Positions 1,192-25,492 of a stretch of 64,000 nt of DNA are shown here, piece after piece. Below the pieces are notes generated by a model. That model made no database searches. It had not been told where the DNA came from and worked only from the letters and a program-made list of their open reading frames with translations. Numbering within the stretch: the stretch's first letter is position 1; every line of letters starts with the position of its first letter. The DNA comes from Photobacterium sp. TY1-4 (GTDB lineage Bacteria; Pseudomonadota; Gammaproteobacteria; Enterobacterales; Vibrionaceae). The stretch lies in NCBI RefSeq assembly GCF_025398175.1, contig NZ_CP099735.1, positions 1,550,001 through 1,614,000 on the forward strand. Direction: 5' to 3'. A program made the position numbers and the translations under genes.

Positions 1192-2739
1192 TCAGTCATA
1201 CATTTTCCAGTTCTGCTCGCGGATCTGACTGATAAAGAGGCGCAGCTCGCCTTCGAGCGGCCGATCTTCACGCACCATTTCAAAATCTTTCTGAACGGAA
1301 GCCAGCATGGCTTGCAGTGCCGGGCTGAGGTGGCTGGTTTGCAACTCGCCCTGGGCTTCGCGAAGCAGCAGGGCCTGCGTTGAGGCGAGCAGCGAGGCGG
1401 AAGCAACTTGTTCCGTCAGCTCAAGCACTCGGAGGCAGTCACGGGAGGCGATGGTCCCCATGCTGACTTTGTCCTGGTTATGACACTCGGTTGAGCGTGA
1501 GAAGACACTGGCCGGCATGGTGTGCTTGAGTGCTTCCGCAGTCCAGGCTGAGATCCCGATCTGCACGGCTTTGAAGCCATGGTTGATGGGTTTGCGCGCA
1601 CCAGTCGCGCCGGTCAGGTTAAACGGCAGGCCGTTGTTGAACTTGTAATCCATCAACTGGGCCATCTGACGGTCCAGCAGATCGGCCAGGTTGGCAACCG
1701 CCACTTTCAGGGTGTCCATCGCCATCGCAATATGACCGCCGTAGAAATGACCGCCATGCAGGACGCGTTCATTGTCACCGTCAATAATTGGGTTGTCGTT
1801 GGCACTGTTGAGTTCATTTTCAATCAGCTGGCGCAACCAGGGCAGGCTGTCCTGCAGCACGCCGATCACATGCGGTGCACAACGCAGAGAGTAGCGATCC
1901 TGCAAGCGGTCGCTGTTCCGTGGCGGCAGGGAAGATTGTAGGTCGCTGCGCAACCAGCCGGCGATTTGCTGTTGTCCTTGATGCGGCTTCACGGCAAATA
2001 AGGCTTCATCGAAGTGGAAGTCATTACCTTGCATGCCGACAGAGACCATCGCGGTGATCCGGGTCGCGAGCTGGGCCAGATACTCAGCGCGTTTATACGC
2101 CAGGCAGGCCAGCGCGGTCATCACGGAGGTGCCGTTCATCAGCGCCAGGCCTTCTTTCGGCTTGAGCGTGATTGGATGCAAACTCAGTTCGGTATAGACG
2201 TCGGCAGCTGCACGGACCTCACCTTGATACACCACGTCACGCTCGCCGATCAGGGCGGCGGCCAGATAAGAGAGTGGCGTCAGATCGCCGCTGGCTCCTA
2301 CAGAGCCTTCCTGAGGGATCCGCGGGGTGATGTCGTGATTGATCAGGGTGACGATTTGATTCAGCAGCTCATGGCTGACCCCGGAAACGCCCTGCGTTAG
2401 TGAGCACAGACGTGTCGCCAGCACCGCACGGGCCTGCTGGTGATCAAGATGCTCACCGAGCCCGCAGCCATGAAAGCGGGTCAGGTGCAACGGCAGCTCA
2501 TCGACCAGCTCCGGCGGGATCGCCACGGTACAGGAATCCCCGTAACCGGTTGTCACGCCGTAGATCACGCCTTCTTCTTTCAGCAGGCTTTCAAGGAACG
2601 CAACACCGCGGTCAATTTTTGCGGTAAATGCAGGGGAATTATTGATTTTGGCCTGGGCACCGTTGGCAATATCAACCACGTCTTCAATGGTCAGGCGATC
2701 GGCGCCAAACAGAATGGCATCTTGATTATCAGAGTTCAT
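1192..2739 (-). CDS. MIO-dependent aromatic amino acid ammonia-lyase (HAL/PAL/TAL family)
   Basis: This enzyme should eliminate ammonia from an aromatic or imidazole amino acid, using the autocatalytic MIO cofactor. It has 515 residues from the second ATG, which has a weak GGA 7 bases upstream; an ATG 12 bases earlier has no ribosome site. The MIO motif GSVGASGDLTPLSY is intact (Ala-Ser-Gly about 149-151), as are the catalytic-loop Tyr (VIYGVTTGYGDS, about 60) and ENELNSANDNP. The specificity pair reads Phe-His in TRFHGCG. That is not the Ser-His typical of histidine lyases, nor the His-Leu or Phe-Leu of tyrosine and phenylalanine lyases. No hut genes are adjacent. Lyases of this type occur in aryl polyene clusters, and two such genes lie at 5.4-6.5 kb. 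Family is sure; substrate is open. Confidence 0.85.
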   Translation of the reverse strand: MNSDNQDAILFGADRLTIEDVVDIANGAQAKINNSPAFTAKIDRGVAFLESLLKEEGVIYGVTTGYGDSCTVAIPPELVDELPLHLTRFHGCGLGEHLDHQQARAVLATRLCSLTQGVSGVSHELLNQIVTLINHDITPRIPQEGSVGASGDLTPLSYLAAALIGERDVVYQGEVRAAADVYTELSLHPITLKPKEGLALMNGTSVMTALACLAYKRAEYLAQLATRITAMVSVGMQGNDFHFDEALFAVKPHQGQQQIAGWLRSDLQSSLPPRNSDRLQDRYSLRCAPHVIGVLQDSLPWLRQLIENELNSANDNPIIDGDNERVLHGGHFYGGHIAMAMDTLKVAVANLADLLDRQMAQLMDYKFNNGLPFNLTGATGARKPINHGFKAVQIGISAWTAEALKHTMPASVFSRSTECHNQDKVSMGTIASRDCLRVLELTEQVASASLLASTQALLLREAQGELQTSHLSPALQAMLASVQKDFEMVREDRPLEGELRLFISQIREQNWKMYD

Positions 2740-2894
2740 GAGAAAATCCATTAATTATCAGCAGATTAGAGGCTTGCCCTCTTATTGACGATCTCATCCT
2801 ATACAATATACATCATGTAGCATAATGCGGAAGGACGGTTTTTCGAGGTTTGTCACGACATGGGAAGTGGCTTGGTAGAGACAAGGGGCATCTC

Positions 2895-21475: not shown

Positions 21476-21804
21476 GCATGACACTTGTCATTCGTTTTTT
21501 TGATTCATGGTGGTCAGTCTCGATAGTGTGATTCTCCAAGACGCAGACTTTTTCTTTCAATGCTTACTCGTATCGAACAGTTTTAACCCTTCTTGATCAT
21601 CTTTACGGCCATGATCAGCTTGTCGAATATTGAGCTGGTTTCCGGCCGGTATTTAGGTAAATCATTCTTTTTCTTATTGACTAGACAAAAGTGATACGCC
21701 CAGCACATATTGCGCATTTTTTGAGTGCTTATGTTGCATATTGGTTGTTGCTATGCAAATTTTGTATATACATATGTAAACCATCAATAAGAAAGGAACT
21801 CGAT
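21476..21804. other. Intergenic region upstream of the BCCT gene
   Basis: This AT-rich 329 bases holds no gene I can support. The near-palindrome TTGTATATACATATGTAA at 21762-21779, 26 bases before the transporter start, may be an operator or the core promoter region of the BCCT-lyase operon. No regulator gene adjoins it. Confidence 0.4.
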
Positions 21805-23394
21805 ATGCCACTTCAGGGAAAGGGTATTAAAGCTAGTGTGTTTATTCCCTCATTCGTCATCGTGTTAGTTGCCGTGACGGTGGGGATTGTTGATAACGAA
21901 TTGCTTGTTGCATCCGCCAAAGCGGTTTTTTACTTCTCATTGTCAGATTTTGCATGGCTGTACCAACTATTGTCAGTGACTGCGCTGATTGTGATTGCTT
22001 ACATCTTTTTCTCGGATGCAGGCAACATTCGACTGGGCGGAAAGGATGCCAAACCAAGATTCTCACTGCTTTCAACGTTTGCGATGGCTTTAACCGGTGG
22101 TATTGCGACGGGGGTCGTGACTTATTCGGTGAATGAACCGGTAATTTACTTTGGCAATATTTATGGAGAAATCGCCAAGCAGGATTTTGCGCCGTTCTCT
22201 GATGAAGCGGCGATCTTTTCTCTGGCGAGAAGCTTTCACAACTGGAGTTTTATTCCCTATGCCATCTACTCCATCGTAGGTTTGATGATTGGCTATATGC
22301 ACTTTAATCGGAAGAAAGCTTTCTCTATTTCATCGACACTGTCGCCAATTCTGGGAAAACATGGTCAACACAGCAGTGTTCAAACCATCATTGAGGTGAT
22401 CTCTGTTCTGGCGATTGCTTTGGGACTTGCTTCCTCTTTGGGGGCTGGCCTGGCTTTGATTAGTTCAGGATTAACAGCGCAGTACGGCATTGAATCCAGC
22501 CCATTGGTATGGCTTGTTCTGACTTGTATTATTGCGGCAATCTTTATTACTTCAGCGCTGTCGGGACTTCAGAAAGGTATTAAATACCTGTCGAGCGTGA
22601 ATGCTTATATCTTTTACTTTTTGGTTGCGGTGCTGATTGTCATCGGGCCAATCAGCTATATCTCCAATCTGTCCGTGACGAGCTTAGGGTATTGGCTGGA
22701 TAACTTTTTCTTGTGGGCCTTTGATACCAAAGAGTCTGGTGGGGAAGCGCTTGTGACCTGGTGGACCATGTATGACTGGTCAATCTGGATTGCCTATGCT
22801 CCTCTCATGGGTCTGTTTCTGGCTCAAATTTCCTACGGACGAACGCTTCGCGAGTTTTTGCTGATCAACTGGGTGCTCCCCTCCGTCTTCGGCATTCTGT
22901 GGTTTGCGCTATGGGGTGGGATGGCTATCAAGTGGCAAATTGATGGTGCATTGGATCTGGTCCAAGTCGTCAAAGATTCGGGCGCGGTGTCAGGCTTGTG
23001 GGGCTTCCTTCAAAATATGCCGCTTTCCGGATTTTTTGTCCCTGTGGTCATTCTGACCCTGATCATTTCCTTCTCAACGGCTGCTGACTCGATGTCATCA
23101 ACGATTGCAGCGATCTGTACGAAAAACATGTCCGCGACGGAAGATTCACCGAAAAAACTCAAGTTGATCTGGGGCCTGCTGATCAGTGCGATCGCCTATA
23201 TCATGGTGGCGTTCGGCGGCGGGGCACAAGGGGTCGATGGCATTAAATATCTCGCGGCGGCTGGCGGGTTCTCCGTCCTGTTTCTTTTCATGTTGATTGT
23301 CATCGCTTCGGTCAGAGTCTTTTTACTGAAATCAAACACCAAAGAAAGCGCAGTCGCTGAAGCTGAAGCGAGAGAGGTTGTTCATGAAAACTGA
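21805..23394 (+). CDS. BCCT family betaine transporter
   Basis: This 529-residue sodium- or proton-coupled transporter of quaternary ammonium compounds (betaine, choline, carnitine type) starts at the ATG at 21805, with GAAAGGAA upstream. Open frame extends back 38 codons without support. It has twelve predicted helices. The family signature around helix 8 is present as TWWTMYDWSIWIAYAPLMG (about 314-332) with FLAQISYGRTLREF, and LTGGIATGVVTYSVNEP carries the unwound helix region. It overlaps the lyase gene by 11 bases, so the two are one operon. A zwitterionic trimethylammonium amino acid such as ergothioneine is the predicted cargo (inference from the lyase). Confidence 0.9.
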   Translation: MPLQGKGIKASVFIPSFVIVLVAVTVGIVDNELLVASAKAVFYFSLSDFAWLYQLLSVTALIVIAYIFFSDAGNIRLGGKDAKPRFSLLSTFAMALTGGIATGVVTYSVNEPVIYFGNIYGEIAKQDFAPFSDEAAIFSLARSFHNWSFIPYAIYSIVGLMIGYMHFNRKKAFSISSTLSPILGKHGQHSSVQTIIEVISVLAIALGLASSLGAGLALISSGLTAQYGIESSPLVWLVLTCIIAAIFITSALSGLQKGIKYLSSVNAYIFYFLVAVLIVIGPISYISNLSVTSLGYWLDNFFLWAFDTKESGGEALVTWWTMYDWSIWIAYAPLMGLFLAQISYGRTLREFLLINWVLPSVFGILWFALWGGMAIKWQIDGALDLVQVVKDSGAVSGLWGFLQNMPLSGFFVPVVILTLIISFSTAADSMSSTIAAICTKNMSATEDSPKKLKLIWGLLISAIAYIMVAFGGGAQGVDGIKYLAAAGGFSVLFLFMLIVIASVRVFLLKSNTKESAVAEAEAREVVHEN

Positions 23395-24910
23395 TGCCAT
23401 GACGATGACCGTTGATGATGCGCCACTTCGCTGGCAGGACATTGTTGATGTCGCTCGAAATTACAACCAGCTGGTGTTGTCAGCAGAACGCTGGCAAGGT
23501 ATTGACGAGGCTCGGGAAGCCGTTGAAACCATGGCGGACTCCGGCAAAGCTTACTATGGCATTAATACCGGGCTGGGGGCGCTGTGCCATGTTGTACTGA
23601 ATCCGACGCAACTTGAGCTGCTTTCCTGGCATACCTTGATGAGCCATGCCTGCGGGATCGGGCAGCCGTTAAGTGATGAACAGGTCAGAGCCATTATGTG
23701 TTGCGCGGTGGTTAATTACAGCCAGGGGTGCTCCGGGATCAGCCCATGGATTGTGAAAGCGTTGGTGCATTTCTTAAACCATGAAGTGACGCCGATTGTG
23801 CCTGGCCAGGGCTCTGTGGGATACCTCAGTCATATGGCACATATTGGGCTGGCGCTGATTGGAGAAGGTGAGGTTTCGTATCAGGGGAAAGTACAGCCAT
23901 GTGCGGAAGTCTTTCAACAGATACAGTATCGCCCCGGCCGATTAGGGGCCAAAGATGGCTTGTCGCTGGTCAATGGCACACCGGCAATGACCGGGTTAGC
24001 GTGTCTGGCTCTTGCTGATAGTGGTTTGTTGGCCCAGTGGGCCGATGTGGTTGGTGCTATGAGCTTTGAAGCTTTATTCGGACAACTTGATGCCTTCGAC
24101 CCGGCGATTTTAGCGCGGAAGAATGATCCGGAGGTGATTGAAGTCGGCAAGAGGTTGAGATCTATGCTGGCAGGCAGTGCGTTGCTTGCATCAAAGCAAG
24201 GCCATCATTTACAAGATGCGCTGAGCCTGAGGTCGATCCCCCAGGTGCACGGCACATGTTGGCGACAATGGCACCATGCGGTAGAGCAAATCGAAAATGA
24301 GCTCAATGCTGCGACGGATAACCCACTGGTGATCAAGGAAGCGGGTACTTACCGCGTTGTTTCGCAGGCGAATCCCCATGGGGAGTCTGTCGCTCAGGCT
24401 TGTGATTTTCTGGCAATCGCTGTCAGTGAGTGGAGCGCAATTTCAGAAAGGCGGAGTTATCGGTTGGTGACCCCGCAAGCAAATGAACTTCCAGCCTTTC
24501 TGAGTCCGGAGAGCGGAGTTAAGTCGGGGATGATGATTGCGCAATATTCTGCTGCTTCGTTGGCGGCGGACAATAAGCGTCTGGCTCAACCCTGTGTCAT
24601 CGACAATTATCTCACCTCAGGACTACAAGAAGATCACCTCAGTTTCGGTGATAGCGCAGCACTCAAGCTGACCGCAGCGCTGGATAATGCCTTCTATATC
24701 CTGGCGATAGAATATTTGTTGGCGGCGCAAGCGTTTGATCTCATTGAGTGTGAAGGATTTGGTTTCGGTACAGCGCGTGCCTGGCAGCAATTGCGGGAGC
24801 AGGTTGCTTTCTATGATGAAACACATTCGCTCCACGTAGACATCAAACGCACGTATCAGATCATGCGTGAACCGGGCTCAATCAAGAGAATTCTGGGAGG
24901 GGCAAGCTGA
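23384..24910 (+). CDS. Ammonia-lyase homologue lacking the MIO triad; probable ergothionase-type lyase
   Basis: This 508-residue protein (ATG at 23384, GAGAGAGG upstream) is a full-length homologue of histidine ammonia-lyase. At the cofactor site it reads GSVGYLSHMAH (about 143-153): Tyr-Leu-Ser replaces Ala-Ser-Gly, so the MIO group cannot form. Other motifs persist: YYGINTGLGALC, ENELNAATDNPL and the Ser-His specificity pair in LMSHACGIG (87-88), typical of imidazole substrates. Ergothionases, which split trimethylamine from ergothioneine to give thiourocanate, are MIO-less relatives of this family. The overlapping BCCT transporter suits a betaine substrate. Hercynine or another histidine betaine is an alternative. 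Family is sure; substrate is inferred. Confidence 0.78.
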   Translation: MKTDAMTMTVDDAPLRWQDIVDVARNYNQLVLSAERWQGIDEAREAVETMADSGKAYYGINTGLGALCHVVLNPTQLELLSWHTLMSHACGIGQPLSDEQVRAIMCCAVVNYSQGCSGISPWIVKALVHFLNHEVTPIVPGQGSVGYLSHMAHIGLALIGEGEVSYQGKVQPCAEVFQQIQYRPGRLGAKDGLSLVNGTPAMTGLACLALADSGLLAQWADVVGAMSFEALFGQLDAFDPAILARKNDPEVIEVGKRLRSMLAGSALLASKQGHHLQDALSLRSIPQVHGTCWRQWHHAVEQIENELNAATDNPLVIKEAGTYRVVSQANPHGESVAQACDFLAIAVSEWSAISERRSYRLVTPQANELPAFLSPESGVKSGMMIAQYSAASLAADNKRLAQPCVIDNYLTSGLQEDHLSFGDSAALKLTAALDNAFYILAIEYLLAAQAFDLIECEGFGFGTARAWQQLREQVAFYDETHSLHVDIKRTYQIMREPGSIKRILGGAS

Positions 24911-25057: not shown

Positions 25058-25492
25058 ATGAAACAATCGATCATCCACATTGCACTGGTCGTCCGGGATT
25101 ATGACGAAGCCTTAGACTTCTATCTCAATAAACTGAAATTTGAGCTGGTGGAAGATACCTATCAGCCCGAGCAGGATAAACGCTGGGTTGTGGTGTCCCC
25201 ACCGGGCTCGAACGGCGTGACCTTGCTGCTGGCCAAAGCCTCAAAGCCGGAACAGCTGGAGTTTATCGGTAATCAGTCTGGCGGTCGGGTGTTTTTGTTT
25301 TTAAGTACCGATGATTTCTGGCGTGATTACCACCGGATGGTGGCCGACGGTATCAAATTTGTACGGCCGCCGAAAGAGCAAGATTACGGCACCGTCGCGG
25401 TGTTTGAAGATCTCTACGGTAATTTATGGGATTTACTGCAACTAAACGCGGATCATCCAATTTCGAGACGCTTGGCTGATCAGGCGGGGTAA
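25058..25492 (+). CDS. VOC (glyoxalase/bleomycin-resistance fold) protein
   Basis: This 144-residue protein has the paired beta-alpha-beta-beta-beta units of the vicinal oxygen chelate family. IIHIALVVRDYDEALDFYLNKLKFELVEDT gives the first metal His at about 7. AVFEDLYGNLWDLLQL gives the usual Glu/Asp and the DxxGN(L)WxL ending (about 114-129). The metal-centred enzyme function is not specified. It is a stand-alone gene 147 bases after the lyase and shows native base composition. Confidence 0.88.
   Translation: MKQSIIHIALVVRDYDEALDFYLNKLKFELVEDTYQPEQDKRWVVVSPPGSNGVTLLLAKASKPEQLEFIGNQSGGRVFLFLSTDDFWRDYHRMVADGIKFVRPPKEQDYGTVAVFEDLYGNLWDLLQLNADHPISRRLADQAG

Follow-up and report, generated by a model that had tools for sequence, protein, structure and literature searches.

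The window analysed here is a stretch of 64,000 nucleotides (64 kb) from Photobacterium sp. TY1-4 (Vibrionaceae; NCBI RefSeq assembly GCF_025398175.1, contig NZ_CP099735.1, positions 1,550,001 to 1,614,000 of the forward strand). It contains a two-gene operon encoding a BCCT-family transporter and a lyase of the histidine ammonia-lyase (HAL) fold that has lost the site of the 4-methylideneimidazole-5-one (MIO) cofactor, preceded by a putative operator for HutC. The features of the locus are as follows, in coordinates of the window.

21763..21772, no strand assigned: putative HutC operator TGTATATACA, a perfect TGTA-N2-TACA palindrome, with 32 bp between its end and the start codon of the BCCT gene
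21805..23394, plus strand: BCCT-family transporter gene of a distinct subclade; intact open reading frame (ORF) from ATG; PF02028, 376 bits, 2e-112
23384..24910, plus strand: gene for the MIO-less HAL-fold lyase, 508 amino acids; intact ORF from ATG; PF00221, 510 bits, 7e-153
23810..23833, plus strand: GSVGYLSH, site of a three-residue deletion (MIO-forming Ser-Gly and the next Asp gone), from the alignment
24221..24223, plus strand: Leu codon at the HAL Tyr280 position, from the alignment

The two ORFs overlap by 11 bases (23384-23394, counted from the lyase ATG); in the ORF list they start further upstream, at GTG 21691 for the transporter and at TTG 23378 for the lyase. An initial annotation of this DNA had described such an overlap between a MIO-less lyase and an upstream transporter of a family for quaternary ammonium compounds, and both ORFs and both family matches bear this out. 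It had further proposed that the lyase is an ergothionase and that the pair takes up and cleaves ergothioneine, a proposal that is weighed below.

Results

Loss of the cofactor site in the lyase

Where the genome's own HutH reads GSVGASGDLAPL, the lyase reads GSVG-Y---LSH (36% identity between the two proteins). In the alignment Ala142 is replaced by Tyr, and Ser143, Gly144 and Asp145 are deleted, so that the change is not the replacement of Ala-Ser-Gly by Tyr-Leu-Ser first described; positions are given in what we take to be Pseudomonas HAL numbering, anchored on the Ala-Ser-Gly (ASG) triad. The triad of HutH is not present and, judged by its sequence, the lyase cannot form MIO. A second change, absent from the initial annotation, places Leu at HAL Tyr280. 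The Ser-His pair noticed in the initial annotation is kept as S87-H88. The lyase falls under both curated NCBIfam cut-offs for HutH (476 of 539 bits and 497 of 524 bits); the genome's own HutH lies above both (708 and 773 bits).

Distribution of the clade

The same three-residue deletion was found in 88 of the 143 distinct lyase ORFs collected; these 88, defined by motif search, are referred to below as the clade, or as GYL type. Labels beginning with L denote individual loci or stretches. A scan of genome contigs yielded 341 stretches that encode a relative, and the best 80 of these 341, mainly from Pseudomonas, Pantoea, Serratia, Erwinia, Raoultella, Halomonas and kin, were taken as named loci. 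A GYL-motif lyase is present in 80 of the 80 fetched, yet the ORF caller, which misplaced genes in some GC-rich loci, missed the clade lyase at 7 of the 88 loci. Because the deletion recurs at this frequency and marks one group in the tree described below, it is not a chance event. Position 280 is Leu in 87 of the 88 clade members and Met in one; among 48 ASG-containing lyases it is Tyr in 46, the other two not being scored. Within the Vibrionaceae the lyase is rare, with a relative at E 1e-120 or better in 2 of 296 genomes, that of TY1-4 included; remoter relatives with the same deletion lie on plasmids of Burkholderia, Rhizobium, Aminobacter, Sinorhizobium and Priestia. A MIO-less lyase of another type was seen in Salinicola (L143, 15083-16618, in the genome of L033), with GSLGA-AD at the triad, Arg at position 83, Leu280 and Lys386, near a second HutU-like gene and several HutC boxes; a relative of it occurs in Brenneria (L034, 15638-17185).

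Relation to HutH and to ergothionase

In a phmmer comparison with PDB sequences the lyase matched HALs with 321 and 274 bits and the T. denticola ergothionase (6s7j) with 210 bits. A tree of 50 lyases was calculated with the MIO columns removed; it held 30 of the 88 clade lyases and 12 of the 48 ASG-containing ones (11 labelled HutH, plus L002), with nine rows classed as other, among them 6s7j and L002. All 30 GYL-type rows form one group (support 98/91), which adjoins the 11 HutH rows and the ASG lyase L002, and the ergothionase-type rows lie beyond a branch system supported at 100/100. The tree was rooted by hand on the thiourocanate-hydratase-linked rows L137, L138 and L140, and a description of the clade as sister of HutH depends on this root. 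A topology that unites the clade with 6s7j and the Serratia lyase was rejected (p-AU 5e-10), the groups compared having been named after the tree was seen. Since the ergothionase-type branches are long and their mutual pairing is weak (87/37), the tree does not fix exactly how many times MIO was lost; as aligned, the deletions of the clade and of ergothionase are plainly different, with three residues missing in the former (GY---L) and one in 6s7j (GE-GD).

Thiourocanate hydratase (NCBIfam NF058530), the enzyme that follows ergothionase, was used as a probe for ergothionase-type lyases; of 398 genomes from the phylum, 5 contain a match that exceeds its cut-off. Genome-level searches for this enzyme and for lyases covered 28 genomes with a clade lyase (26 of the 80 named loci and two Vibrionaceae genomes), and the hydratase was found in one of them, Serratia grimesii (L036); there the lyase close to the hydratase matches ergothionase best (267 bits, vs 160 for the best HAL), and the GYL-type lyase lies elsewhere, inside a hut operon. 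A lyase-family ORF was present in five of the six stretches around thiourocanate hydratases (none in L141), and the GYL motif in none of these five. In TY1-4 no protein reached the hydratase cut-off; the best match (700 bits vs 930) is HutU.

Active-site pocket and structure model

All 30 clade rows agree with HutH at Y53, S82, H83, N195, Q277, R283, M382, Q413 and E414, and the HutH pocket set Y53, S82, H83, N195, R283, M382 and E414 is complete in the lyase of TY1-4. According to a study of a Geobacillus HAL (PMC11432326), Tyr52 and Glu414 are crucial for catalysis, Asn194, Gln274 and Arg280 are thought to position the substrate, and one methionine is conserved in bacterial HALs. Three ergothionase-type sequences were compared (6s7j, Serratia L142 and L137; the enzyme of Burkholderia sp. 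HME13 is not among them), and these have Ser195, Gly382, Lys386 and Ile/Leu413 in common; all four are absent from the clade, which has Asn, Met, Tyr and Gln instead. The simplest reading is that the pocket would fit an unmodified imidazole. An AlphaFold model of the lyase has the HAL fold with a mean pLDDT of 88.5 and is confident except in a few stretches, the weakest being residues 408-416.

Genomic neighbourhood and the hut pathway

Of 82 related loci, 62 have at least one of hutI, hutG, hutC, hutF and hutU within the flanking sequence fetched. Neighbourhood tallies for the related loci (BCCT loci and gene order) are lower bounds because of the misplaced ORFs; they do not include the five plasmid loci L013-L017, and neither do the counts of HutC boxes and transporter types. 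Hut genes are nearby at 9 of 11 related loci with a BCCT gene (L100, L020-L025, L027, L031), five of which (L022-L025, L027) have the order hutI-hutG-hutU-BCCT-lyase; of the remaining two, L032 has only a hutD-like gene and L026 has no hut gene. Seven of the 11 encode canonical HutH within the stretch fetched (L020-L024, L027, and the genome of L100 via its wider stretch L144). At other loci an ABC transporter of SBP3 or OpuAC type precedes the lyase. Urocanase ORFs at the 88 loci were nearer to HutU in 38 of 38 cases and nearer to thiourocanate hydratase in none.

The genome of TY1-4 encodes HutC, HutI, HutG, HutU and HutH, all over the NCBIfam cut-offs and together a complete Hut pathway. 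Among the 28 genomes carrying a clade lyase, 26 have an ASG-type (HutH) enzyme as their top lyase-family match, so that histidine is already served; an ASG-type lyase lies in the same stretch as the clade lyase at 29 of 80 named loci. In Corticimicrobacter (L025; stretch L145) the MIO-less lyase in the hut operon is the only PF00221 match of a draft assembly, and this operon may therefore serve the betaine alone; in the metagenome-assembled genome of L047 the best lyase-family match is likewise of GYL type.

Putative HutC operator

Pseudomonas HutC binds TGTA-N2-TACA and is treated as the repressor of histidine and urocanate use in PMC12977541. An exact match, TGTATATACA, occurs once in the window, close upstream of the operon, and constitutes a predicted site. 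In the 5.6 Mb genome there are seven exact sites, compared with three for a reversed-pattern control. One copy lies 25 bp before hutI, in the hut operon of TY1-4, and another (L147, 1523-1532, on contig 1) precedes by 26 bp the ATG of a gene for a Gate-family permease. This permease is 75% identical to a hut-linked one of Oceanimonas, and in relatives its gene sits in the hut cluster; the remaining four sites are at or inside other ORFs. Within -120 to +250 bp of the start of the transporter or of hutI, hutU, hutF or hutC, the exact box was found at 58 of 83 loci and the reversed pattern at none; for the TGTANNTACA pattern in the same intervals the counts were 69 loci and four. No TGTANNTACA box was found in the fetched stretches around six of six thiourocanate hydratases.

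BCCT transporter

The transporter matches PF02028 over its full length and above the cut-off, and belongs to the BCCT family; it reached no cut-off of the named NCBIfam BCCT subfamilies or equivalogs (best 317 of 650 bits; TIGR00842, 295 of 407.55). The genome encodes nine BCCT proteins, this one included. The 12 lyase-linked BCCTs form one subclade in a quick tree (SH-aLRT 99), with GIATG at the GMGIG position (GMGIG in four of the other eight BCCTs of TY1-4) and with WWTMYDW as the substrate box of transmembrane helix (TM) 8, the Asp of which occurs in none of these eight. The position of the TM8 box is one that we assume from BetP. The nearest solved relatives of the transporter by sequence are a trimethylamine transporter (8zw8) and BetP; with these it shares the full-length family match, and it differs in its own subclade, GIATG and the TM8-box Asp.

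Other genes of the window

The genome has three lyase-family genes, encoding the MIO-less lyase, the canonical HutH of contig 1 and, within the window (1192-2751, minus strand), a further lyase. The last has an intact ASG triad and Phe-His instead of Ser-His, and its top NCBIfam match is a tyrosine ammonia-lyase model, far under the cut-off. A glyoxalase/VOC-family gene (25058-25492) starts 147 bp 3' of the lyase gene on the same strand; because no counterpart was found at the other loci compared (support 0), it probably lies outside the module.

Discussion

Proposed function of the operon

The operon probably serves the uptake of hercynine (N,N,N-trimethyl-L-histidine) and its elimination to trimethylamine and urocanate, followed by HutU. 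Both ORFs, the loss of MIO, the clade, the pocket, the linkage of related lyases to hut genes, the sequence of the operator and the complete Hut pathway were computed, and from these we infer substrate, transport, chemistry and induction. The BCCT protein would import hercynine, the histidine betaine, and the lyase would eliminate trimethylamine from it to give urocanate, which HutU, HutI and HutG, whose genes lie elsewhere in the genome, would convert to glutamate. In HutH it is the MIO that enables the amino group to leave. The trimethylammonium group of hercynine would be a ready leaving group, and a base taking the beta proton would suffice; since trimethylamine departs readily as a neutral molecule, the MIO electrophile would have become dispensable and hence been deleted. 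Urocanate would relieve repression by HutC at the operator before the transporter gene and so induce the operon. No full-length FMO-like monooxygenase was found, and trimethylamine is for this reason probably exported. We lean, with somewhat less assurance, towards the broader view that a widespread, hitherto unrecognised branch of HutH lost its MIO and became a hercynine trimethylamine-lyase under HutC control, the loss being separate from that of the ergothionases.

Several observations weigh against this proposal. The literature searched yielded no assay of a clade member, and a different alpha-N-substituted histidine could be the substrate of the lyase. At 20 of 82 loci none of hutI, hutG, hutC, hutF and hutU lies in the fetched flank, and in TY1-4 the BCCT-lyase pair is on a different contig from the hut operon. 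An amino-acid-type (SBP3) ABC transporter, by itself no pointer to a betaine, is present at 43 of 83 loci. The HutC boxes are putative operators, their binding being a prediction; the exact box is directly before the transporter at only 38 of the 74 loci with a transporter (34 of 43 for SBP3, 1 of 19 for OpuAC and 3 of 12 for BCCT, window included) and elsewhere stands before hut genes, is lacking near the transporter and hutI, hutU, hutF and hutC starts at 25 of 83 loci, and was not found in the five plasmid loci.

Alternative explanations

Another alpha-N-modified histidine, such as dimethylhistidine or an N-alkylated histidine, would also yield urocanate, and the evidence from hut genes, HutC and the pocket applies to it equally; the variety of transporters (BCCT, SBP3-type and OpuAC-type ABC) could even mean varied substrates. 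We regard such a substrate as unlikely: BCCT and OpuAC transporters handle mainly quaternary ammonium compounds, and without MIO a good leaving group is needed. The reading of the initial annotation, in which an ergothionase releases trimethylamine and thiourocanate from imported ergothioneine, is improbable as well. The lyase does resemble ergothionase in the HAL fold, in the lost triad and Leu at position 280 (both seen in 6s7j), and in the elimination of trimethylamine from a histidine betaine proposed for it; the lower score of 6s7j, the rejected joint grouping, the absence of the four ergothionase-type pocket residues, the want of a thiourocanate hydratase over the cut-off in TY1-4, the putative HutC operator of the urocanate pathway before the operon and the lack of TGTANNTACA at the hydratase stretches nevertheless speak against this reading. 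A two-gene module for a trimethylated histidine is retained as probable with ergothioneine disfavoured, and the "histidine betaine" (hercynine) in the heading of that annotation fits best.

That the lyase is a second histidine ammonia-lyase acting on plain histidine without MIO is very doubtful. The HutH-like pocket and the Corticimicrobacter hut operon, with the clade lyase as only PF00221 match, would agree with it, but MIO and Tyr280 are central to HAL catalysis, an ASG-type enzyme accompanies the clade lyase in 26 of 28 genomes and lies in the same stretch at 29 of 80 named loci, and a betaine-type transporter would be left unexplained. The least probable reading is a catalytically dead paralogue kept for regulation or for assembly with HutH, as the lost MIO and the close linkage to HutH at some loci might suggest: Tyr53, Arg283 and Glu414 are kept in all 30 rows, and a dedicated transporter accompanies the lyase also away from hutH, as in the window.

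Comparison with known systems

The clade lyase has HutH as its nearest group in the tree and ergothionase as its closest functional analogue. With HutH the lyase shares the nearest place in the tree, the imidazole and carboxylate pocket, the hut linkage and a HutC-type operator; HutH differs in having the MIO triad, Tyr280, Val386 and Phe329, where the clade lyase lacks MIO and has Leu280, Tyr386 and usually Pro at 329. Ergothionase differs in its separate place in the tree, its own type of pocket and its linkage to thiourocanate hydratase, against the HutH-like pocket and the HutC/hut linkage of the clade, which is by sequence a separate, HutC-linked lineage. Trimethylamine elimination by a MIO-less HAL relative is already known from ergothionase.

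The OpuAC-type ABC transporter directly before the lyase in several Pseudomonas and Serratia relatives resembles the hut-linked ABC transporter of Pseudomonas and rhizobia, which we take to be HutXWV in name and role; the BCCT protein of the operon is of a different transporter family in the same place. Pseudomonas hut clusters presumably hold an additional hutH without a clear role (hutH1 in P. fluorescens; PA5093), and the gene order in L039, L049 and L060 suggests that the clade lyase may be this gene. PA5093 is called hutG in one paper (PMC12772324). A 2026 study (PMC13405746) names only a few microorganisms as having a definitively established ergothionase, and states that BLAST searches with the Burkholderia sequence gave similarity only to HAL, phenylalanine ammonia-lyase (PAL) and tyrosine ammonia-lyase (TAL). 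In the titles and abstract openings of the open literature, with subscription papers mostly outside, no description of a hut-linked MIO-less lyase or of a hercynine lyase was found.

Implications

If the proposal is true, many genes annotated as hutH today do not encode histidine ammonia-lyases, and the extra "hutH" genes in the hut clusters of Pseudomonas and enterobacteria would be explained. Loss of the cofactor would have gone along with the gain of a better leaving group, outside the ergothionase lineage. The hut pathway would gain a second entrance, a betaine branch that releases trimethylamine, and hercynine, a precursor of ergothioneine that occurs in fungi and bacteria, would gain a catabolic route.
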